This document shows, piece by piece, positions 46,972 to 56,096 of a stretch of DNA of 64,000 nucleotides. This DNA is from Cellvibrio sp. 79. Its GTDB lineage: Bacteria > Pseudomonadota > Gammaproteobacteria > Pseudomonadales > Cellvibrionaceae. Position numbers and translations under genes: made by a program. Under the pieces are notes generated by a model. The model saw only the letters and a list, made by a program, of their open reading frames with translations, was not told the origin of the DNA and searched no databases. Location of the stretch: contig MVDH01000001.1 of NCBI GenBank assembly GCA_003056245.1, positions 1,240,716 through 1,304,715 on the forward strand, in the 5' to 3' direction. The first letter of the stretch is position 1, and every line of letters begins with the position of its first letter.

Positions 46972-47655
46972 TTATAATTTAATATCTAGCTTGTTGATCA
47001 CCGTTTTTACATCATTTTGTTTGGATGCAATTGCTTGGGCGAGATCTTTTTGTACGCTCGTATTTACTATACCGGTCAGTGTGACGGCGTTGTTGTAGGT
47101 ATCCACATTAATTTTTAAGCCCTCAATATTTTTGGAGGCGAGTAGTTCGGATTTAATCGAAGCAGTTGTGGAAACATCATTTACATATTGGGAGAAACTG
47201 CGGCGATTTGTTGTTGTCACAGGTTGTGCGTTAGTTGTCGCGGGTGGTTTTGGGGTCACCTTGATATTGTTTTTTACGGAATCGATGCCTTCAATCCCCA
47301 GCGCAATATTTTCTGCCAACTCTTTTTGAATATCCGAATAAACTATACCATCCAATATTGCGACAGTGTTGTCGACATTTATATCAATATCTAAATCGCT
47401 AAGATGTTTGTTAAGAACTAATGCAGTTTCCAGTTTACTTTCAATCCAACCATCTTTAAATGCCGCTTTACTGTCTTTCCATGTTTGTTTACTGTCTTGT
47501 TTAAACTCCGCCCAATATTCTTCAGCGGATCTTTTATCTTGGCGTGTCTCATATTCTGTATTTGCAGCGCAAGCCCCGGAAACAATAACTAATACTGTCG
47601 GATATAAGATTGCGCTTATTTGTTTAATTGGAAAACGAAATTGTACAGTTTTCAT
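46972..47655 (-). CDS. Periplasmic protein with two BON domains
   Basis: The 227-residue protein has an N-terminal export signal (possibly a lipoprotein-like SGAC), a charged helical stretch with many Trp and Lys (EYWAEFKQDSKQTWKDSKAA), and two BON domains: ESKLETALVLNKHLSDLDIDINVDN...VAILDGIVYS and SIKSELLASKNIEGLKINVDTYNNAVTLTGIV. BON domains are lipid-binding modules of envelope-stress proteins such as OsmY and DolP. It is divergent from the AI-2E permease gene and has a sigma-54-like promoter upstream. Confidence 0.88.
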   Translation of the reverse strand: MKTVQFRFPIKQISAILYPTVLVIVSGACAANTEYETRQDKRSAEEYWAEFKQDSKQTWKDSKAAFKDGWIESKLETALVLNKHLSDLDIDINVDNTVAILDGIVYSDIQKELAENIALGIEGIDSVKNNIKVTPKPPATTNAQPVTTTNRRSFSQYVNDVSTTASIKSELLASKNIEGLKINVDTYNNAVTLTGIVNTSVQKDLAQAIASKQNDVKTVINKLDIKL

Positions 47656-47728: not shown

Positions 47729-47745
47729 AGCGGGATTTATGCCAA
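47729..47745 (-). promoter_or_regulatory. Candidate sigma-54 promoter of the BON gene
   Basis: Read on the minus strand, TTGGCATAAATCCCGCT has GG and GC exactly ten bases apart and a good -24 box (TTGGCAT). The -12 box (CCGCT) is a partial match. It ends 74 bases before the BON start codon. Confidence 0.5.
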
Positions 47746-47807
47746 AATGTTAAGTTATTGTATCTTCGGTATTTTTTTATTTTAAATAAGTAGATTTCGT
47801 AAATAAT

Positions 47808-47830
47808 TTTTTTGAAAAAAATTCAAAAAA
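47808..47830. promoter_or_regulatory. A/T-rich dyad between the divergent BON and AI-2E genes
   Basis: TTTTTTGAA and TTCAAAAAA form nine-base arms around a five-base A spacer. It lies about 63 bases upstream of the BON -24 element and could be an enhancer for a sigma-54 activator or a bend site. The whole gap 47656-47913 is very A/T-rich. Confidence 0.35.
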
Positions 47831-47854
47831 TGTAAATTTTAGAGTTTTTAAAAT

Positions 47855-47871
47855 GTGGTATGAAAATGGCA
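47855..47871 (+). promoter_or_regulatory. Candidate sigma-54 promoter of the AI-2E gene
   Basis: GTGGTATGAAAATGGCA has GG-N10-GC with the -12 box TGGCA. It ends 42 bases before ATG 47914. Confidence 0.45.
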
Positions 47872-47913
47872 AAGCAATAAGGATGATTTGTATCCCCGAT
47901 GGGAGATTTGGCG

Positions 47914-48996
47914 ATGAATACCCGTGTAATTATCCATGAAGTAGAAAAATTACAACAAAAAACAGTAATTCTCCTGTTGAAGTTTTTGGGGGTAATTGCT
48001 CTACTTTATACCTTATATTTTTGCCGTACCCTACTGTTGCCTGTATTGGTGGCGGGGTTTATTGCGTTATTTTCCAGCCCTCTTGTACGGTTTCTCGCCC
48101 ATCATAAAATTCCACATGCATTGGCATCCCTATTGGTTGTGATTTTATTATTTTTCGGTTTGGCTATTACCGTTGCTTTTTTGGTTGAGCCTGCAAGTCA
48201 ATGGTTAAATAATCTGCCCACGTTGGGGGATAAGTTGACAGCGCAGATGGATAATCTGTCCGAATCATTTAATGCCCTAAAAACTAGTTTATTAACTACC
48301 GAAGATTCGGGAAATACTGTAGTGAATCTGGTGGAAGGGATGATGCTTTCCTCATTTTCGGTAGTGGCTGGCACTACAGCATTGTTAATAATGCAAATTT
48401 TTTCAGTGTTTATTATCACGTATTTTTTTCTAGAATATGGCGATGATTTAATGCGTAATCTGGTTCGGGTACAAGGATCTTTTAGCGAGAAAAAGAAAAC
48501 TGTAATTATTTTCCAAACTGTACGCGATGATATCTCACGTTATGTGCTGGTTATTTTTGTGATTAATTTGGGGTTAGGTGTTGCAACAGGAATTGTCATG
48601 GCTTTATTGGGTGTAAAAGACCCGATTCTTTGGGGCGCATTAGCCGCTATTCTTAATTTTGCCCCTTATGTAGGGGCGATATTATTGTCAGTAATCCTTA
48701 CGTGTGTCGGATTTATTGAATTTGGTTCTGTTACTGAGGCGCTTATGGTTCCTGGGGCTTTCATTCTTCTTAATTTTATAGAATCCCAGCTAGTAACTCC
48801 TACTGTACTTGGTCAGCGTTTCAACATGAATCCGCTATTGGTTGTTTTGTGGATGTTTGTCTGGGGTTGGGTGTGGGGAGTAATAGGCTTATTAATCGCT
48901 ATCCCCCTGTTGGTATGTTTTAAAATTCTTGCATCCCATTTAAACCTTATCGGTGGTTGGATAAACATTATTGATTCAGAAATAGGCAAAAAGTAA
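47914..48996 (+). CDS. AI-2E-family permease
   Basis: The 360-residue membrane protein has about eight helices and the family signatures PLVRFLAHHKIPHALASLLVV, GALAAILNFAPYVGAIL and QRFNMNPLLVVLWMFVWGWVWGVIGLLIAIPLLVCFKI. ATG 47914 is favoured because GGGAGA lies at good spacing; ATG 47899 is possible. Family members include the TqsA autoinducer exporter and sodium/proton antiporters, so the cargo cannot be stated. It has a sigma-54-like motif upstream and starts the envelope part of the block. Confidence 0.9.
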   Translation: MNTRVIIHEVEKLQQKTVILLLKFLGVIALLYTLYFCRTLLLPVLVAGFIALFSSPLVRFLAHHKIPHALASLLVVILLFFGLAITVAFLVEPASQWLNNLPTLGDKLTAQMDNLSESFNALKTSLLTTEDSGNTVVNLVEGMMLSSFSVVAGTTALLIMQIFSVFIITYFFLEYGDDLMRNLVRVQGSFSEKKKTVIIFQTVRDDISRYVLVIFVINLGLGVATGIVMALLGVKDPILWGALAAILNFAPYVGAILLSVILTCVGFIEFGSVTEALMVPGAFILLNFIESQLVTPTVLGQRFNMNPLLVVLWMFVWGWVWGVIGLLIAIPLLVCFKILASHLNLIGGWINIIDSEIGKK

Positions 48997-49169
48997 TCCT
49001 GTAATAATTTCTTTTTTTGCAATATTTTCAAGCCTCTTTAGTGGTGAGTAGAACCTTTGCTATACAAAGCTTTTTGGAGAAAATCGTTAGTGGTTGGCGT
49101 TAACAGCGCTATCCATATGAATTTATTGGGATTTTATAGCGTCAAAAAAAAATGGGATGGGTAAGAAAG

Positions 49170-49186
49170 TTGGCATGGGGTTTGAA
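49170..49186 (+). promoter_or_regulatory. Near-consensus sigma-54 motif before the DUF1328 gene
   Basis: TTGGCATGGGGTTTGAA has a strong -24 box (TTGGCAT) and a TTG at -12, but the GC dinucleotide reads GA. It lies 37 bases before the ATG at 49224. Confidence 0.4.
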
Positions 49187-49223
49187 GTGAATAACATAAG
49201 TATCTGAAATTAAAGGGGGCTCT

Positions 49224-49385
49224 ATGCTGTATTACTCAATAGTGTTTTTTATTGTCGCCATCATTGCTGCGATCTTGGGGTTTGGTGGTATTGCAGGGGC
49301 CGCAGCTGGCATTGCTAAAATATTATTCTATATATTTTTAGTATTATTGATTTTATCTTTGGTATTTGGTCGACGTCGTTTTTAA
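49224..49385 (+). CDS. DUF1328 small membrane protein (YtjA type)
   Basis: The 53-residue protein is almost wholly hydrophobic, with two helices around a glycine/alanine segment ([18 protein letters not shown]), and ends in the basic GRRRF. This matches the DUF1328 / YtjA family of short membrane proteins. ATG 49224 is preceded by AAAGGGGG. It starts a group of four small envelope genes. Function unknown, often found among stress-induced genes. Confidence 0.85.
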
Positions 49386-49427
49386 CCCGGTTTAATCATT
49401 TTTTAAATGTTTAATGAGGTAAATGTT

Positions 49428-49715
49428 ATGGCTACCCAACCATCCCTTAAAGATGTTGCAAATGGACGTTTGAATGCAGTGAGCATATCCGAGGCGATTA
49501 ACCAATTTAAAGAAGCAACGACGCAAATTTATGATGCGGTTAGCCTTATTGGTAACACATCTGCGGCTGCTGCCAAAACCCAGTTGTATGAAGGTAAAAT
49601 CAAAGCATTGGAATTAGAGGAAAAAGCTGAGGAATTAGTAAAGGCTAGGCCTTTAGTAACTATTGGGGTAGCCTTTGCTGCAGGTTGGTTGGTATCTCGA
49701 TTACTACAGCGTTAG
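49428..49715 (+). CDS. DUF883 / ElaB-YqjD-like membrane-anchored protein
   Basis: The 95-residue protein begins at ATG 49428, after GAGG. It has a long amphipathic helix and a C-terminal hydrophobic segment ARPLVTIGVAFAAGWLVSRLLQR, the arrangement of ElaB / YqjD proteins that anchor at the inner membrane by the C terminus and can bind ribosomes in stationary phase. The link is by arrangement and the C-terminal motif only. Confidence 0.75.
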   Translation: MATQPSLKDVANGRLNAVSISEAINQFKEATTQIYDAVSLIGNTSAAAAKTQLYEGKIKALELEEKAEELVKARPLVTIGVAFAAGWLVSRLLQR

Positions 49716-49727
49716 GTGACATTGATC

Positions 49728-50186
49728 ATGGATGCTCATGATCGTGAAAAGGAAGCGGTTAGCGAGGCATCATCTGCAGCGAATTCGCCGCCAAATCCTG
49801 ACAACTTTAAGGATATGTTAGCGCTCGGGGAGCAGGTCGTTCGATTGGTTAACGATATAGCCGACTTGGTGCGAATGGAAACCATGCTGGCTATTCAGTC
49901 AATACCGCGATTATTGATGCTGTGGTTTTTGATGATGCCAATTCTCTTATTAACCTGGTGTTCATTTTCAGCATGGATTGCATGGATGCTATACGCGGCA
50001 ACACAATTGCCGGGAGCGGGTTTTTTTGCGTTTTTTCTTCAGCAGCTTTTATTGCTCTTCGTGTGTCGATGGCTTTATACAAAATACCGGCAACGTATGA
50101 CCTTGCCTTATACGCGTGAACATATAGATAAATTTTTACGGGGGTTTAATAATGGATCTCCTGGATCGAGTGAAACAAAAAAATAG
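49728..50186 (+). CDS. Small membrane protein, putative holin-superfamily / DUF1469-like
   Basis: The 152-residue protein has an N-terminal polar helix (EQVVRLVNDIADLVRMETMLA) followed by two hydrophobic helices (about residues 62-87 and 92-115) and a basic tail. This layout resembles the YqjE / DUF1469 proteins that accompany DUF883 genes, but similarity is weak by eye. ATG 49728 is favoured. It overlaps the next gene by 35 bases. Confidence 0.65.
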   Translation: MDAHDREKEAVSEASSAANSPPNPDNFKDMLALGEQVVRLVNDIADLVRMETMLAIQSIPRLLMLWFLMMPILLLTWCSFSAWIAWMLYAATQLPGAGFFAFFLQQLLLLFVCRWLYTKYRQRMTLPYTREHIDKFLRGFNNGSPGSSETKK

Positions 50187-50415
50187 TCAGGTAATCCGGC
50201 GAGAAATTGAGCTGGAATTGCTTTTGGGTAGGAACTTAAGTGGGAATGTACCACGCACTGGTATGTTAATTTTTGTTATTGCACCATTTTGTGCCGGGTT
50301 CATTGCCCATCGCTTATCTCGATATTCATTTGGCGTGCAACTCATTGATGCTTTTTTACCCGTGGGTTCATTATTCCAAAAACTTGGACACATCCGTATA
50401 AATTTAGAAAGATGA
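50152..50415 (+). CDS. Small hypothetical membrane protein (YqjK-like position)
   Basis: The 87-residue protein has a charged N-terminal helix (VKQKNSQVIRREIELELLLG), one hydrophobic segment (GMLIFVIAPFCAGFIAHRL) and a short tail. No family is recognised. It overlaps the previous gene by 35 bases, so it belongs to the same operon, as the third partner often does in ElaB / YqjD-YqjE-YqjK clusters. Confidence 0.6.
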   Translation: MDLLDRVKQKNSQVIRREIELELLLGRNLSGNVPRTGMLIFVIAPFCAGFIAHRLSRYSFGVQLIDAFLPVGSLFQKLGHIRINLER

Positions 50416-50593
50416 GTTAATTTCAGGAGGTCAAAAAAGCAACCAAAAATTTTATTTTATTAATTTAAGCGACCGTGCGAAATGCTAAAAAGGTGATGCA
50501 GATCGCTAACTTATTGATTTATTCTGCTTTCTTTTAGTCTTGGGGTGCTAGAATGAGTCGCGTACTTGCTCGCCAATAATGAGGGTGAATATC

Positions 50594-51913
50594 GTGGCTG
50601 ACGTTTTATTAGTTGACGATGATAGAAATTTTTTAAACGCAACTGCTGAGTTGTTAGGGTTACTTGGGCATTCTGTAAAAGCAGTGGATTCTGTTGCCGA
50701 TGCGCGTGAGTTAATTGGCAAACATCAGTTTACCCACATGATATTGGATTTAATTCTGCCCGACGGAAGTGGTCTGCATTTGTTAGAGGCCCTGCCAGCG
50801 AAAAGTGATACAAAAATTACATTGATAACAGGGCATCCCTCTGTTAAGTCCATTGTTAAAAATCTTTATGGCTCTAATGTTAGCTACCTCATTAAGCCCA
50901 TAGATTTAAGTCAACTGCAGTCTTTATTTGTTGAGCATCAGCCAGTTGCTGGCGTCAATCATTCGACAATACCATTACATTTTAATTTCCTGGTGGGTGA
51001 ATCCGAGCCCATGCAGCACTTATATGAAATGATTGAGCGCGTTTCTTTAACCAGAGCCAATGTGCTTTTATTAGGTGAAAGTGGTGTTGGTAAAGAAATG
51101 GTGGCGGCCGCTATACATTATGCGAGTAAAGTGGATGGTGAATTCGTTGCTACCAATTGTGGCGCATTTTCGCGTGAATTAATCAATAGTGAATTGTTTG
51201 GGCATGAGAAAGGCGCGTTTACCGGTGCCAGTCACCGCAAAATAGGCGTTTTTGAGCAGGCTAATAAGGGCACGTTATTTCTGGACGAAATCACTGAAAT
51301 GCCGCTTGATCTTCAGCCTAATTTATTGCGCGTATTGGAAACTAAAAAGGTTACGCGTCTTGGTGGTGTAACTCCGATTGATGTTGAGGGGCGTGTTGTA
51401 TCCGCAACAAATCGGACTGAACTGGAAATAGCCGAGCAGCATCGTTTACGTGAGGATTTGTATTTCCGATTAGCTGTTTTCCCTATTCACATTCCTCCGT
51501 TGCGCAGTCGTAGAAGTGATATTCCTCTATTGGTTCAATATTTTCTGTCAGTATTTAATCAGCAATACGATAGCAATATTAGTATTAGTGAAGAGTCGCT
51601 ACAAAAGTTGATGGAGTACGATTGGCCTGGCAATGTGCGTGAATTGCGCCATGCGGTCCATCGCGCTTTCATTATGGCTGATCCACAAAAAAAGCTTATT
51701 GTTTTGCCTAATGATTTAACGTCGCCGTTTTCCAAAATCAGCCAGCAGCATGCAGCTGGGATTTCGGTGGGGAAAACGGTTGAAGAAGTTGAACGTGAGT
51801 TGATTGAGATCACCCTTCAACACTTTGACGGCGATAAAAAGCAAACAGCGGATATGCTGGGAATAAGTTTGAAGACACTTTATAACCGTTTAAATAGTTA
51901 TGCCGATGCCTAA
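50594..51913 (+). CDS. Sigma-54-dependent response regulator (NtrC family)
   Basis: The 439-residue protein from GTG 50594 (GAGGGTG just upstream; ATG 50579 is an alternative) has a receiver domain with LLVDDD and phospho-acceptor Asp52 in MILDLILPDGSG, a AAA+ domain with Walker A GESGVGKE and the sigma-54 contact loop GAFTGA, and a C-terminal Fis-type helix-turn-helix (QTADMLGISLKTLYNRL). It should activate sigma-54 promoters when phosphorylated. It begins the two-component cluster and is a good candidate activator for the sigma-54-like motifs ahead of the adjoining envelope genes. Confidence 0.93.
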   Translation: MADVLLVDDDRNFLNATAELLGLLGHSVKAVDSVADARELIGKHQFTHMILDLILPDGSGLHLLEALPAKSDTKITLITGHPSVKSIVKNLYGSNVSYLIKPIDLSQLQSLFVEHQPVAGVNHSTIPLHFNFLVGESEPMQHLYEMIERVSLTRANVLLLGESGVGKEMVAAAIHYASKVDGEFVATNCGAFSRELINSELFGHEKGAFTGASHRKIGVFEQANKGTLFLDEITEMPLDLQPNLLRVLETKKVTRLGGVTPIDVEGRVVSATNRTELEIAEQHRLREDLYFRLAVFPIHIPPLRSRRSDIPLLVQYFLSVFNQQYDSNISISEESLQKLMEYDWPGNVRELRHAVHRAFIMADPQKKLIVLPNDLTSPFSKISQQHAAGISVGKTVEEVERELIEITLQHFDGDKKQTADMLGISLKTLYNRLNSYADA

Positions 51914-51924
51914 GGGGAGATAAT

Positions 51925-52149
51925 ATGTTGGACGCAGAAACACAACGTTTACTGCATGATCTCCGCAATCCTTTGAATAGTATTTCTATCAATGCTGAGT
52001 TAGGCAAGTTGACGTTGGAGCGCACAGGAGACATCCAGCGCGCGATTCATATTTTTGACATCATTCTTAATGAGTGCCGCAATTGCAGTAACAAATTGAA
52101 TGATATTAAAAATACGCCGCGTAAATTTGGGGAAGAGGGAGTGGGATGA
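51925..52149 (+). CDS. Stand-alone DHp (HisKA) mini-protein
   Basis: The 74-residue protein consists only of a two-helix dimerisation / phospho-acceptor unit. The H-box LLHDLRNPLNSISINAEL has His11, and the second helix is IQRAIHIFDIILNECRNCSNKLNDI. There is no ATP-binding domain, membrane helix or receiver. ATG 51925 follows AGGGGAGA, and its last four bases overlap the kinase start (ATGA), so it is translated as part of the cluster and is not a truncated kinase with a missing 3' part. It may act as a phosphotransfer or dimer-interfering partner. Confidence 0.75.
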   Translation: MLDAETQRLLHDLRNPLNSISINAELGKLTLERTGDIQRAIHIFDIILNECRNCSNKLNDIKNTPRKFGEEGVG

Positions 52150-53642
52150 ATGATGCCTCTCATGCCAGTGAAACCAGTTTTGGTGGTTTACCGGGTTATG
52201 TCTGGCATCTCGTATTGGCAACTGTAATTAGTTTTTTTGTTATTAGTGCTGTCCTGTCATATCGCTCAGTCAATATTATCGCTGCTAATAATCGCAGCAT
52301 TAATAATAATCTGCAGACTATTACCCTTATCAAAGATTTAAAAACCGAACTGCTGGCTGCTGAAAGTAGCCAGCGTGGGTTTTTATTGACATCGGACGAG
52401 CAATATCTTGAGCCTTATCATAAAACGTTACATGTTATAGATGATTTATTGAATAAATTAAGTGATGCGTCTGAGGAAATACCAGCCCAAAAAAATCGAT
52501 ATGAGCAACTCTATTCCCATGTGTTAGACAAGATTAGTGAGATGCAAACAATTGTCAGTCTGACAGGTGAAGACAGATATAGGGAGGCGATTAATAAAAT
52601 CAGGACTGATGAGGGTATTAAATTAATGCAAGTTATTACCGGTCTTATCGGGGAAATGGAAGCCGATGAGGCGTTAAGGCTTAAGGAAAATAAAAGCCAT
52701 GCATTGAATAACCGGCAGTTTATTGTTGCCTCATTGCTGTTAACCAATTCGATTGGTTTAATGCTTTCCCTTGGTATATTTTTTATTTTGTATCGCAATT
52801 CTGCGAAGGTAGCCGATTTATATCGGGAGCTTGAACGAGCAAATAATGAGCTCGAAATAAAGGTGGATGCGCGCACACAAACGCTTATGCAGTACTCGGA
52901 GGAATTGCAACGTAGCAATAAAGAACTGGAAGCGTTTGCTTTTGTTGCATCGCACGATTTGCAGGAGCCTTTACGAAAAATTCGCGCATTTGGTGATCGT
53001 TTGCAACAAAAATATACGTCGGAACTGGGTGAGCGAGGTGCTGATTATGTTAACCGTATGCAGGCAGCATCAGAACGTATGTCAGTACTTATCGATGATC
53101 TTCTCAGTTTTTCGCGGGTAACTACCAAGCAAAAACCATTTGTGCCTGTTGATTTAAATAAAGTGATGGGACGGGTTCTGGATGACCTGGACTACGCGAT
53201 AGAAGATGTCAGTGCGAAACTTTATATAGAATCGCTGCCCGTTATAGATGCTGATGCATCTCAAATGGGTCAGGTATTTATGAATTTAATGGCGAATAGC
53301 CTTAAGTTCAGGCGCCCCGATGTTCCCCCTGAAATTCGGGTGACTTGCGAGGAAGGGCTTTCGTCCCCACTGGTTGAGGATGGGCGTGACTGGTGTTGTA
53401 TACGATTTTCTGATCAGGGTATTGGATTTGATCCCCATTATGCGGATCGAGTGTTTAATTTATTTCAACGCTTGCACGGACGTGATGAATATTCGGGGAC
53501 CGGGATTGGCCTGGCTTTGTGTAGAAAAATTGTCGAACGTCATGGCGGTAGTATTGAGGCAGAGAGTGAGTTAGGTAAAGGGGCTACATTTATTATCTAC
53601 TTGCCAATGTCACAACCGGTAATTGAGCCACTCGAAGTTTAA
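52146..53642 (+). CDS. CHASE3-containing sensor histidine kinase
   Basis: The 498-residue protein has a transmembrane helix at about 20-42, a helical CHASE3 sensor (about 45-180, with AESSQRGFLLTSDEQYLEPY), a second helix at about 194-216, a coiled coil, a DHp domain with the H-box FVASHDLQEPLRKI (His270), and a HATPase domain with N-box FMNLMANSLKFR, G1 FSDQGIGFD and G2 GTGIGLALCRKIV. All catalytic residues are present. It overlaps the DHp mini-protein gene by four bases. Confidence 0.92.
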   Translation: MNDASHASETSFGGLPGYVWHLVLATVISFFVISAVLSYRSVNIIAANNRSINNNLQTITLIKDLKTELLAAESSQRGFLLTSDEQYLEPYHKTLHVIDDLLNKLSDASEEIPAQKNRYEQLYSHVLDKISEMQTIVSLTGEDRYREAINKIRTDEGIKLMQVITGLIGEMEADEALRLKENKSHALNNRQFIVASLLLTNSIGLMLSLGIFFILYRNSAKVADLYRELERANNELEIKVDARTQTLMQYSEELQRSNKELEAFAFVASHDLQEPLRKIRAFGDRLQQKYTSELGERGADYVNRMQAASERMSVLIDDLLSFSRVTTKQKPFVPVDLNKVMGRVLDDLDYAIEDVSAKLYIESLPVIDADASQMGQVFMNLMANSLKFRRPDVPPEIRVTCEEGLSSPLVEDGRDWCCIRFSDQGIGFDPHYADRVFNLFQRLHGRDEYSGTGIGLALCRKIVERHGGSIEAESELGKGATFIIYLPMSQPVIEPLEV

Positions 53643-53688: not shown

Positions 53689-54132
53689 ATGAATGTTCCT
53701 AAAAAGACGCTGGTAATTTTAATGGCAGAAGATGATAAAGATGATCGTCTTCTGACACATGAGGCAATGCATGAAAGCCGGGTATTAAATGAGTTGCACT
53801 TTGTTGAAAATGGCGTGGAGCTGTTGAACTATTTGCATGGTGAAGGTGTGTATGCAGACCGTGCTCTTTATCCGTTGCCGGGTTTAATTTTGCTTGATTT
53901 AAATATGCCGAAAATGGATGGCCGTGAGGCTTTGGCAAAAGTTAAGGCTGATAAAAACTTGCGTCGCATTCCTGTGGTAATCCTGACTACCTCTAAAGCA
54001 GAAGAGGATATGGTAAAGGGCTATGATCTGGGCGCTGCTTCCTATATTACCAAGCCGGTTACATTTGACGCGCTCGTTGAATTAATGCGTGTTCTGGGCA
54101 GGTATTGGGTCGAGTTTGTTGAATTGCCTTAA
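53689..54132 (+). CDS. Single-domain response regulator (Rcp1-like)
   Basis: The 147-residue receiver has AEDDKDD, phospho-acceptor Asp70 in LILLDLNMPKMDG, TTS and KPV. There is no output domain. Such proteins usually shuttle phosphate or bind partners. It lies between two kinase genes and probably takes phosphate from the CHASE3 kinase. Confidence 0.93.
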   Translation: MNVPKKTLVILMAEDDKDDRLLTHEAMHESRVLNELHFVENGVELLNYLHGEGVYADRALYPLPGLILLDLNMPKMDGREALAKVKADKNLRRIPVVILTTSKAEEDMVKGYDLGAASYITKPVTFDALVELMRVLGRYWVEFVELP

Positions 54133-54155
54133 GCGTGGTCCATGGAGAATCGTCT

Positions 54156-56096
54156 ATGCAAACGGTAAAACTTTTAATTGTTGACGATGACGAAGACGAT
54201 TTTTTATTAACAAAGGAATTGTTGGGCGAGATCAATCAAAATTATCAGTTGGAATGGGCTTCAAGTTTTGAAAAAGGCTTGTCGTTATTAAGTGAAAACT
54301 CCCACGATTTGTGTTTAATGGATTATAAACTGGGTGCACAGGACGGCATTGCATTGTTACGCCAGGCGCACGATGTTGGTTTTTCCGGTCCTATTATTTT
54401 GTTGACGGGTGTTCATCGCGCAGATGTTGATCTTCAGGCATTGGAAGCGGGCGCGGTTGATTATTTAGTAAAGTCCGGTTTGAGTGCAGAACAGCTTGCA
54501 CGCTCTATTCGTTATGCATTGGCTCGTAATGATGTAGAACAGGAGCGTGTTGAGCGTTTAAAAGCCGAAGCGGAAAACCGTGCGAAAAGTGAATTTCTTG
54601 CCCACTTAAGCCACGAGTTGCGGACACCGTTATCTGCAATTCTGGGTTTCACTGAGTTGTTAATCAATAAGAATACCGACCTGGAAAATCTTTCCCATTT
54701 GCATATTGTCCATCGCAATGGCAAACATTTATTAGGTTTGCTGAATGATGTTCTGGACTTGTCAAAAATAGAAGCCGGTAAGTTGGAACTGGAAAAGCAA
54801 ACGGTTCACTTATCCTCATTTCTTTGTGATATTTATTTCCTGATGCAGGGCGCGGCGATCGATAAAAATTTGCGCTTGCGTGTAGAAGCCCCTCAACCAC
54901 TTCCTGCGAGTATTTATACTGATCCAATGCGCTTGCGCCAAATCTTGCTGAACTTGATTGGCAACGCTATTAAGTTTACTAATGATGGCGAGGTTGTTTT
55001 GAATATTGAGCGTTTGCGCGAACACGAACAAGGCAAGGAAAAAATTGCGTTTACGGTGCGGGATACCGGTATAGGTATTAGTAAAAATGTGCAGGAACTT
55101 ATTTTTGAACCGTTTGTGCAATCGAAAGATGCTTATGCTCATCCGCGTGCTGGAACGGGTTTAGGGCTTACTATCAGTAAAATGCTGGTTGCCCGGCTGG
55201 GTGGAGACATCCAGTTGGTTAGTGAGGTCGGCAAGGGTAGTGAATTCAGTTTTACTGTTGATCCGGGGGATTTGTCGCAAATCGGTTCTGAGTTATTGCG
55301 TTTGAATTTTGATTTGGTGAGCGAAAAAAATACAGTAATACCGCATTTTAGCGGCCGTGTGCTGGTAGTAGATGACCTGCGTGATATCCGGTTGTTGATT
55401 GGTCATTTTGTTTCTTCGACCGGTCTGGATGTCATGTATGCCGATAATGGTGCGGAAGTGTTGCGCTTGATTGAAACCGAAGCGGCGCAAGGACGAAGTT
55501 TTGATATGGTTTTGATGGATATCCATATGCCAATTATGGATGGGCATGAAGCGGCTAGGCGATTGCGGGCCAATGGTTTCAACCCACCATTGGTGGCCTT
55601 AACTGCGGCGCACATGAAAGGTGATATGGATCAGTGTTATGAATCCGGCTTTTCTGCTTATCTGGGCAAGCCAGTGGATCAGGCGCGGCTTTACGAATGT
55701 ATGGCGAATTTTCTGCCGACAACATCAACTGATGTGTTGACTGAACAAAAATCACAGGGAGGATATATCTTAGTGGTCGAAGACGATCCTGATGCATCAC
55801 AGGCACTTGCTGCGTTGTTAGGATTATTGGGATGGCAAGCAATTATCGCGCGCGACGCCGCTACTGCGTTAGTCAAAGCTAGGGATTACCAGCCAGCCAT
55901 TTTGCTTTTGGATATTAATTTGCCAGATATGAATGGTTATGTATTGGCGACGCAAATCCGTTCTATTTTGCCTGATGCAAACATTATCGTTGCGAGTGGT
56001 GAGGAATTGGACAAGGCTCGCGCGAAAGAAGCAGGAATTAACGGTTCCATATTAAAACCGGTTTCGCTTGACCAACTGCAAGATATCTTGCAGTAA
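54156..56096 (+). CDS. Hybrid kinase: REC - DHp - HATPase - REC - REC
   Basis: The 646-residue soluble protein starts at ATG 54156, eight bases after GGAG. It has an N-terminal receiver (VDDDEDD, Asp56 in CLMDYKLG), a kinase core with FLAHLSHELRTPLSAI (His153), N-box NLIGNAIKFT, G1 RDTGIGIS and G2 GTGLGLTISK, then two receivers (VVDDLRD with VLMDIHMPIMDG, and VVEDDPD with LLLDINLPDMNG). There is no membrane helix or Hpt domain. It takes input through its N-terminal REC and is the last gene of the cluster, ending at a strong terminator. Confidence 0.93.
   Translation: MQTVKLLIVDDDEDDFLLTKELLGEINQNYQLEWASSFEKGLSLLSENSHDLCLMDYKLGAQDGIALLRQAHDVGFSGPIILLTGVHRADVDLQALEAGAVDYLVKSGLSAEQLARSIRYALARNDVEQERVERLKAEAENRAKSEFLAHLSHELRTPLSAILGFTELLINKNTDLENLSHLHIVHRNGKHLLGLLNDVLDLSKIEAGKLELEKQTVHLSSFLCDIYFLMQGAAIDKNLRLRVEAPQPLPASIYTDPMRLRQILLNLIGNAIKFTNDGEVVLNIERLREHEQGKEKIAFTVRDTGIGISKNVQELIFEPFVQSKDAYAHPRAGTGLGLTISKMLVARLGGDIQLVSEVGKGSEFSFTVDPGDLSQIGSELLRLNFDLVSEKNTVIPHFSGRVLVVDDLRDIRLLIGHFVSSTGLDVMYADNGAEVLRLIETEAAQGRSFDMVLMDIHMPIMDGHEAARRLRANGFNPPLVALTAAHMKGDMDQCYESGFSAYLGKPVDQARLYECMANFLPTTSTDVLTEQKSQGGYILVVEDDPDASQALAALLGLLGWQAIIARDAATALVKARDYQPAILLLDINLPDMNGYVLATQIRSILPDANIIVASGEELDKARAKEAGINGSILKPVSLDQLQDILQ

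Follow-up and report, generated by a model that had tools for sequence, protein, structure and literature searches.

A predicted sigma-54 regulon of envelope and general-stress genes associated with a two-component cassette in Cellvibrio sp. 79

Introduction

RpoS stress regulons include BON and CsbD proteins. Proteins of both families are also listed, in the part of the article available, in a publication on the AlgU regulon of Azotobacter vinelandii (PMC10651043), and the title of another article holds that sigma-54 serves the cell exterior (PMC3162934). In this study, a 64,000-nucleotide stretch of DNA from Cellvibrio sp. 79 (C1:1240716-1304715 of a 5.7-Mb genome; hereafter the window) was analysed, in which genes for BON, AI-2E and DUF1328 proteins lie next to a signalling cassette headed by the gene of an NtrC-type activator. 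A preliminary description of this DNA had proposed that three sigma-54-like promoter motifs and the activator constitute a self-contained regulon.

The comparisons described below make it likely that envelope and general-stress genes form a sigma-54 (RpoN) regulon which the cassette turns on through predicted enhancer dyads. Stress and envelope targets thus appear to be wired to sigma-54 in this organism, which agrees with the thesis of that title (PMC3162934). Searches of open-licence article listings, together with the articles cited here, gave no description of such a regulon. The words BON and OsmY do not occur in the text available from PMC3162934, Cellvibrio, BON and CsbD do not occur in the text of PMC13377108, and none of six terms checked for occurs in that of PMC12316311. 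The regulon has apparently been undescribed so far.

Results

Three sigma-54 sites and their conservation

All three motifs were present where the preliminary description had placed them. The predicted promoters of bon (TGGCATAAATCCCGCT, 47729-47744, minus strand, matrix score 11.6) and of the AI-2E gene (TGGTATGAAAATGGCA, 47856-47871, plus strand, matrix score 10.8) both carry the canonical GG and GC ten bases apart, and the predicted promoter of the DUF1328 operon (TGGCATGGGGTTTGAA, 49171-49186, plus strand, matrix score 13.0) reads GG-N10-GA. The gap between site and start codon, given earlier as 37 to 74 bases, is 73 bases for bon, 37 bases for DUF1328 and 42 bases for the AI-2E gene when its ATG at 47914, which is preceded by GGGAG, is taken as the start (27 bases with the ATG at 47899). 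The predicted targets, whose domains were called with Pfam and NCBIfam models against their cut-offs, encode a BON-domain (OsmY-like) periplasmic protein (46972-47655, minus strand; PF04972 in two stretches, the OsmY model scoring below its cut-off), an AI-2E family transporter (47899-48996, plus strand, likely start ATG 47914; PF01594) and a DUF1328 protein (49224-49385, plus strand; PF07043). The window scan also agreed with the reported absence of the motif at the CBS/DUF4142/BrkB/DUF2934 group.

The sites were evaluated in relatives, whose genes were located by tblastn, by counting sites with a sigma-54 score of at least 9.9 within 230 nt of the gene (denominators were counted by hand from the result rows). 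A site was found ahead of bon in 25 of 28 cases, ahead of DUF1328 in 30 of 31 and ahead of the AI-2E gene in 17 of 29, one of these 17 (L078) being doubtful because it has GG in place of GC. Separately placed DUF883 genes likewise carried a site (7/8), and the sites were kept also where the gene order differs. When 16-bp windows were ranked by conservation in same-genus intergenic alignments (7 sequences for the bon/AI-2E spacer and 10 for DUF1328), the AI-2E site ranked 1/220, the DUF1328 site 1/200 and the bon site 9/220. The -12 element of the DUF1328 site was GA in 17 and GT in one of the 18 copies from the two nearest genera, the window included, and GC in 11 of 13 copies outside them. 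Since GA is kept across the two nearest genera, the near match before DUF1328 is a conserved variant.

A palindrome upstream of the sites

Gapped words enriched upstream of the sites converged on a symmetric 19-bp motif, TTTTGNA-N5-TNCAAAA. The first predicted enhancer dyad in the window (TTTTGAAAAAAATTCAAAA, 47810-47828, 19.1 bits) is common to the promoters of the divergent bon and AI-2E genes, lying 75 bp from the bon site and 37 bp from the AI-2E site. It corresponds to the A/T dyad that had been noticed between these sites, which is real as a 19-mer and is one copy of the palindrome, probably the enhancer of the activator. The second (TTTTGCAATATTTTCAAGC, 49015-49033, 18.6 bits), absent from the preliminary description, is located 147 bp upstream of the DUF1328 site and showed no conservation of position in the same-genus alignment (rank 39/200).

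The motif was trained on 82 upstream regions that contain, within 230 nt, a site scoring at least 9.9 with the sigma-54 matrix, the divergent bon/AI-2E spacer being counted for both genes, and in these training data a dyad of at least 11 bits occurred in 70 of the 82 upstreams as against 3% of shuffles. A hold-out motif trained on only the 50 upstreams of the two nearest genera reached at least 8 bits in 24 of the 32 upstreams of other genera (background: 8.4% of shuffles, 7.4% of random chunks) and at least 10 bits in 19 of the 32 (4% of shuffles, 4.9% of random chunks). Across the 40 loci of relatives described below, 135 combinations of a dyad and a sigma-54 site (hereafter pairs) were counted, compared with 4 in reversed sequence, 9-17 in five Markov shuffles, and 12 and 15 when the sigma-54 spacing was set off by one. 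Under stricter thresholds the count was 103, compared with 0 reversed, 1-3 shuffled, and 1 and 6 spacing-shifted.

The centre of the dyad lay a median of 89 bp upstream of the site, with a 5th-95th percentile range of 47-239 bp (76 pairs). Such widely varying distances, together with the A/T-rich arms, might indicate that a different DNA-binding protein, for instance a repressor or a nucleoid protein, occupies the dyad, which would then not be the enhancer of the activator. A variable upstream distance is, however, usual for sigma-54 enhancers. Moreover, the 17-bp two-arm layout of the dyad resembles the published NtrC box TGCACCAnnnTGGTGCA (PMC8743547, from the portion of the article available). 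We therefore consider binding by another such protein improbable and continue to read the dyad as the predicted enhancer of the activator.

Two further observations concern the dyad. In L072-L074, at about 17.3 kb, a DUF883 gene and a gene for an OmpA-like barrel diverge around one shared dyad that is flanked on both sides by a sigma-54 site, which is the same layout as that of bon and the AI-2E gene. In the Cellvibrio sp. 79 genome, a near-perfect intergenic dyad of 21.3 bits (C1:1154226-1154242, L085) has no sigma-54 site nearby.

Unlinked members of the regulon

Pattern searches of the same genome with the right spacing returned pairs at bon, AI-2E, DUF1328, CsbD and DUF2383 genes, one inside an open reading frame (ORF) and one other. 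The CsbD gene (C9 near 1219.7 kb) is unlinked to the cassette, and its pair also occurs in two other species. The DUF2383 gene (C9:1028893), likewise unlinked, has a pair in all six of the genus copies found, those of G014 and G023 having been found by homology alone. A third unlinked gene, for a small lipoprotein (C1:193992-194195), was located by homology and then seen to carry a pair. None of the upstreams of these three genes had been used in dyad training. In relatives, pairs were also found ahead of small lipoproteins, OmpA-like barrels and DUF2383 proteins. These results suggest a dispersed regulon, for which six or more promoters are predicted in this genome. The unlinked members, which the preliminary description did not include, and the finding of no pair before the activator gene of the window (see below) argue against a self-contained regulon; the other half of that proposal, a tie between the sigma-54 regulon and the adjacent NtrC-type activator, gains strong support from comparative footprinting, the shared dyad, synteny and co-occurrence.

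The lipoprotein has 60-70 amino acids with the pattern C-D...GxAExxGExxDxA and meets no Pfam cut-off; in many relatives (L044, L049, L050, L053-L055, L077 and others) its gene, with the pair, adjoins the cassette after the hybrid kinase. Two same-genus genomes (L257 and L232) share a conserved pair that lies about 260 nt upstream of an ORF for a Crp-like protein, and in one of them (79% complete) no activator was found. In two other genera, a pair precedes the gene of a 550-580-amino-acid membrane protein (L063, about 2.3 kb; L075, about 3.9-4.2 kb), which in L075 is divergent from an AI-2E-like gene. The HCxxGxxRS stretch of this membrane protein is like that of a dual-specificity phosphatase. 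One further pair in the window, at about 4.2 kb, stands ahead of only a 21-codon ORF. A pair was also looked for before the activator gene; none was found in the window, and among the 40 loci only L061 gave one nearby, located inside the activator match.

Evidence from the window scans and the question of chance

Several points weigh against the regulon proposed here. The sigma-54 matrix was a hand-written one, and the DUF1328 site lacks the canonical C at -12. Sites scoring at least 10 numbered 21 in the window as against a mean of 29.4 (standard deviation 6.3) in 20 first-order Markov shuffles, and the 4 pairs in the window alone, as against 0-3 in 20 shuffles, are a weak excess. The count of 135 pairs is partly circular because the dyad matrix was trained on upstreams in the same loci, a circularity that the hold-out does not share. 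Raw pattern counts in the genus were 39 with the right spacing and 29 with one base too many, a difference so mild that single pattern matches must be mostly chance and recurrence is what counts as evidence. Strict dyads were more frequent in this genome than the reversed pattern (29 vs 9), but 27 of the 29 fall within ORFs of 60 codons or more, and the bon/AI-2E dyad is the only one accompanied by sigma-54 sites that lead to genes, so that a strict dyad alone is no target finder. In L058 and L060, neither bon nor DUF883 has a clear dyad ahead of it.

The first of these points bear on whether the three motifs fit a loose consensus merely by coincidence, since scans of the window alone were close to background. 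A loose-consensus search gave 377 matches compared with 339 ± 20, a number reached by 2 of 100 shuffles, and by the matrix the DUF1328 site ranked 1st, the bon site 10th and the AI-2E site 18th of all positions. A matrix scan against shuffled sequence, as the preliminary description had proposed, thus did not separate the sites from chance; that distinction is made by the relatives and not by the matrix. In the relatives, position and sequence were conserved across genera, even after rearrangement, and footprinting already contradicts coincidence, which we regard as having a negligible probability.

Distribution of the cassette and the choice of activator

The cassette consists of five plus-strand genes, which encode the NtrC-type activator with a receiver, an AAA+ domain with GAFTGA and a Fis-type helix-turn-helix (HTH) (50579-51913; PF00072, PF00158, PF02954), a 74-amino-acid protein with a lone HisKA (DHp) domain (51925-52149; PF00512), a CHASE3 sensor histidine kinase (52146-53642; PF05227, PF00512, PF02518), a single-domain receiver protein (53689-54132; PF00072) and a hybrid histidine kinase (54135-56096; NCBIfam hybrid-kinase models, all below cut-offs, and syntenic). 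Upstream, the DUF1328 operon continues on the same strand with a DUF883-like gene (49407-49715, likely start ATG 49428; DUF883_C below cut-off, E 0.003, with tblastn relatives in the same place), a gene for a holin-like membrane protein (49716-50186; PF07332 below cut-off, E 0.019, syntenic) and a small closing ORF (50152-50415; no Pfam match). Neither a terminator-like site nor a forward sigma-70-like site was found between this operon and the activator gene. Read-through of DUF1328-operon transcription into the activator gene, with positive feedback, is therefore possible.

Matches to the activator at E<=1e-80 were obtained in 45 of 144 family genomes, including the Cellvibrio sp. 79 genome itself; the five weakest, which are partial matches of 47-51% identity, are possibly not orthologues. 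Loci were fetched for 40 of the 44 other activator-bearing genomes, leaving out G052, G072, G090 and G102 (partial, 47-49% identity), and L079 (G126) among the 40 is a similarly weak match. All five cassette genes were matched by tblastn in 32 of the 40 loci, at least one being unmatched in L056, L057, L061, L063, L064, L069, L078 and L079. At least one of bon, AI-2E, DUF1328, DUF883 and holin genes was matched within the fetched stretch in every one of the 40 loci, often with changed order or orientation. Among 21 genus genomes, 10 had both BON and the activator, 8 had neither and 3 had one without the other (Fisher P 0.002), and DUF2383 was present in 6 of the 21, all with the activator (P 0.019); these P values are indicative only because the genomes are related. 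The activator match ends early in G021 (L036/L065; residues 1-311) and contains one stop in G018, G044 and G142, which possibly represents decay or assembly error.

The full cassette was also found with bon and DUF883 in Paraglaciecola marina (L110) and with DUF883 and DUF1328 in a genome from another family of the class (L326), both with weaker dyads (9.2-10.9 bits). In a class-wide draw, 2 of 369 genomes, the present one included, passed E 1e-110 for the activator, so that the system looks narrow. A short-peptide search of named genomes gave, among the best 80 of at least 591 matches, mostly distant NtrC-family proteins, the useful matches being those of Gilvimarinus agarilyticus and Paraglaciecola marina. 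No convincing dyads were found in the loci of Caenimonas (L111), Pigmentiphaga (L118) and a Sinobacteraceae metagenome-assembled genome (L113), in the last of which BON and DUF1328 genes adjoin an activator of 39% identity.

The phosphoacceptor Asp of the receiver, the Walker A and GAFTGA motifs of the AAA+ domain and the HTH are all present in the activator and conserved among 41 sequences. The GAFTGA loop (residues 212-217) is intact, as had been described, and 95-100% conserved per column. Identity among the 41 sequences was 0.89 in residues 425-441 (recognition helix region), 0.76 in the AAA+ domain and 0.63 in the receiver; the highest value in the recognition helix region is what conservation of the DNA site would lead one to expect. 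The activator meets no cut-off among the 25 best NCBIfam models shown.

The same genome contains an rpoN (sigma-54) gene and at least 16 proteins matching the AAA+ region. This number, along with L058 and L060, would suit a situation in which some other enhancer-binding protein acts on genuine sigma-54 promoters and the cassette is only their genomic companion. On the other hand, targets are linked to the cassette in all 40 loci and co-occur with the activator in the genus, and a near-invariant recognition helix accompanies a dyad common to several genera. Control by another enhancer-binding protein is thus unlikely, and control by the adjacent activator is the interpretation that we favour.

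The lone HisKA protein

The lone HisKA protein matches PF00512 with 29.9 bits (cut-off 26.9) and is present in 37 of the 40 loci. No HATPase domain was matched in its 74 amino acids, and by that criterion it is not a histidine kinase. In an alignment of 36 sequences (35 relatives and its own; L041 and L070, which read past a stop, were left out), H11, R14, N15, N18, E25, L26 and C51 were invariant, C54 was kept in 34 of 36, Asn stood at H+4 in 36 of 36 and an acid at H+1 in 27 of 36. AlphaFold predicted a helical hairpin (mean predicted local distance difference test score, pLDDT, 89.4), for which the fold matches in PDB, HK853 and ChpT among them, were weak (E 0.17 and 0.88 for these two, 0.17 being the best value; none <=0.001). 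In HisKA proteins, an acid at H+1 is needed for kinase activity and Thr or Asn at H+4 for phosphatase activity, according to the part available of the article by Willett and Kirby (PMC3510030). Since the H+4 Asn is invariant while the H+1 acid is free to vary, we infer a dedicated phosphatase or phosphotransfer role for the lone HisKA protein.

Discussion

Comparison of relatives establishes, at the level of sequence, the conserved predicted sites, the dyad, their pairing, synteny and co-occurrence, and the genome has an rpoN gene. Based on these results, the following mechanism is hypothesised. A phosphorelay of the CHASE3 kinase, the receiver protein, the hybrid kinase and the lone HisKA protein, whose order and signal are conjectural, would lead to phosphorylation of the response regulator encoded at 50579-51913. 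The phosphorylated regulator would bind palindromes of 17-19 bp (TTTTGNA-N5-TNCAAAA), typically about 50-240 bp upstream of GG-N10-GC/GA promoters, and would drive open-complex formation by RNA polymerase with sigma-54 (RpoN). The one shared dyad would serve the divergent BON and AI-2E promoters and the second dyad the DUF1328-DUF883-holin-like operon, with the CsbD, DUF2383 and small-lipoprotein genes as candidate unlinked targets in the same genome.

More tentatively, the minimal ATPase-free DHp protein might be a phosphatase or phosphotransfer module dedicated to the activator, which its invariant Cys may make redox-responsive. It would then fix the threshold of a sigma-54 regulon for envelope stress, one that has acquired genes which RpoS or AlgU controls in other organisms. 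As a stand-alone DHp protein, it is a candidate minimal phosphorelay part. The regulon as proposed would bring envelope and general-stress families, several of them of unknown function (DUF1328, DUF883, DUF2383, CsbD, BON and AI-2E), under one cassette with a readable enhancer code, and gives these six families a testable shared role.

ChpT/Spo0B-like phosphotransferases have a dimeric DHp four-helix bundle and a degenerate ATPase-like domain. Like them and like the DHp domains of kinases, the lone HisKA protein is predicted to have its His in a two-helix, DHp-like hairpin; unlike them, it is a 74-amino-acid hairpin only, has no ATPase-like domain, gives fold E-values that are not significant and adds a conserved C-x2-C. 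Among sigma-54 activators, ZraR, GlrR, AtoC and the PrsR-type (PEP-CTERM) regulators are also two-component proteins with local targets, but the activator here scores below all their NCBIfam cut-offs. PspF of the phage-shock system is similar in being a sigma-54 activator of a membrane-stress gene set (a role taken from the available part of PMC3162934), whereas the present activator has a receiver domain, kinases and other targets, and scores 249.3 against the TIGR02974 cut-off of 443.6. With NtrC it shares the receiver-AAA+-Fis HTH architecture and the 17-bp palindromic layout of the NtrC box (PMC8743547, within the part available); it differs in its score (324.8 against the TIGR01818 cut-off of 558.6), in the arms of its predicted site (TTTGNA here, TGCACC in the NtrC box) and in its targets, which are stress and envelope genes. 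The proposed regulon resembles the AlgU and RpoS stress regulons in having genes for BON and CsbD proteins, and differs from them in its promoters, which are predicted to be sigma-54 promoters served by an enhancer of their own.

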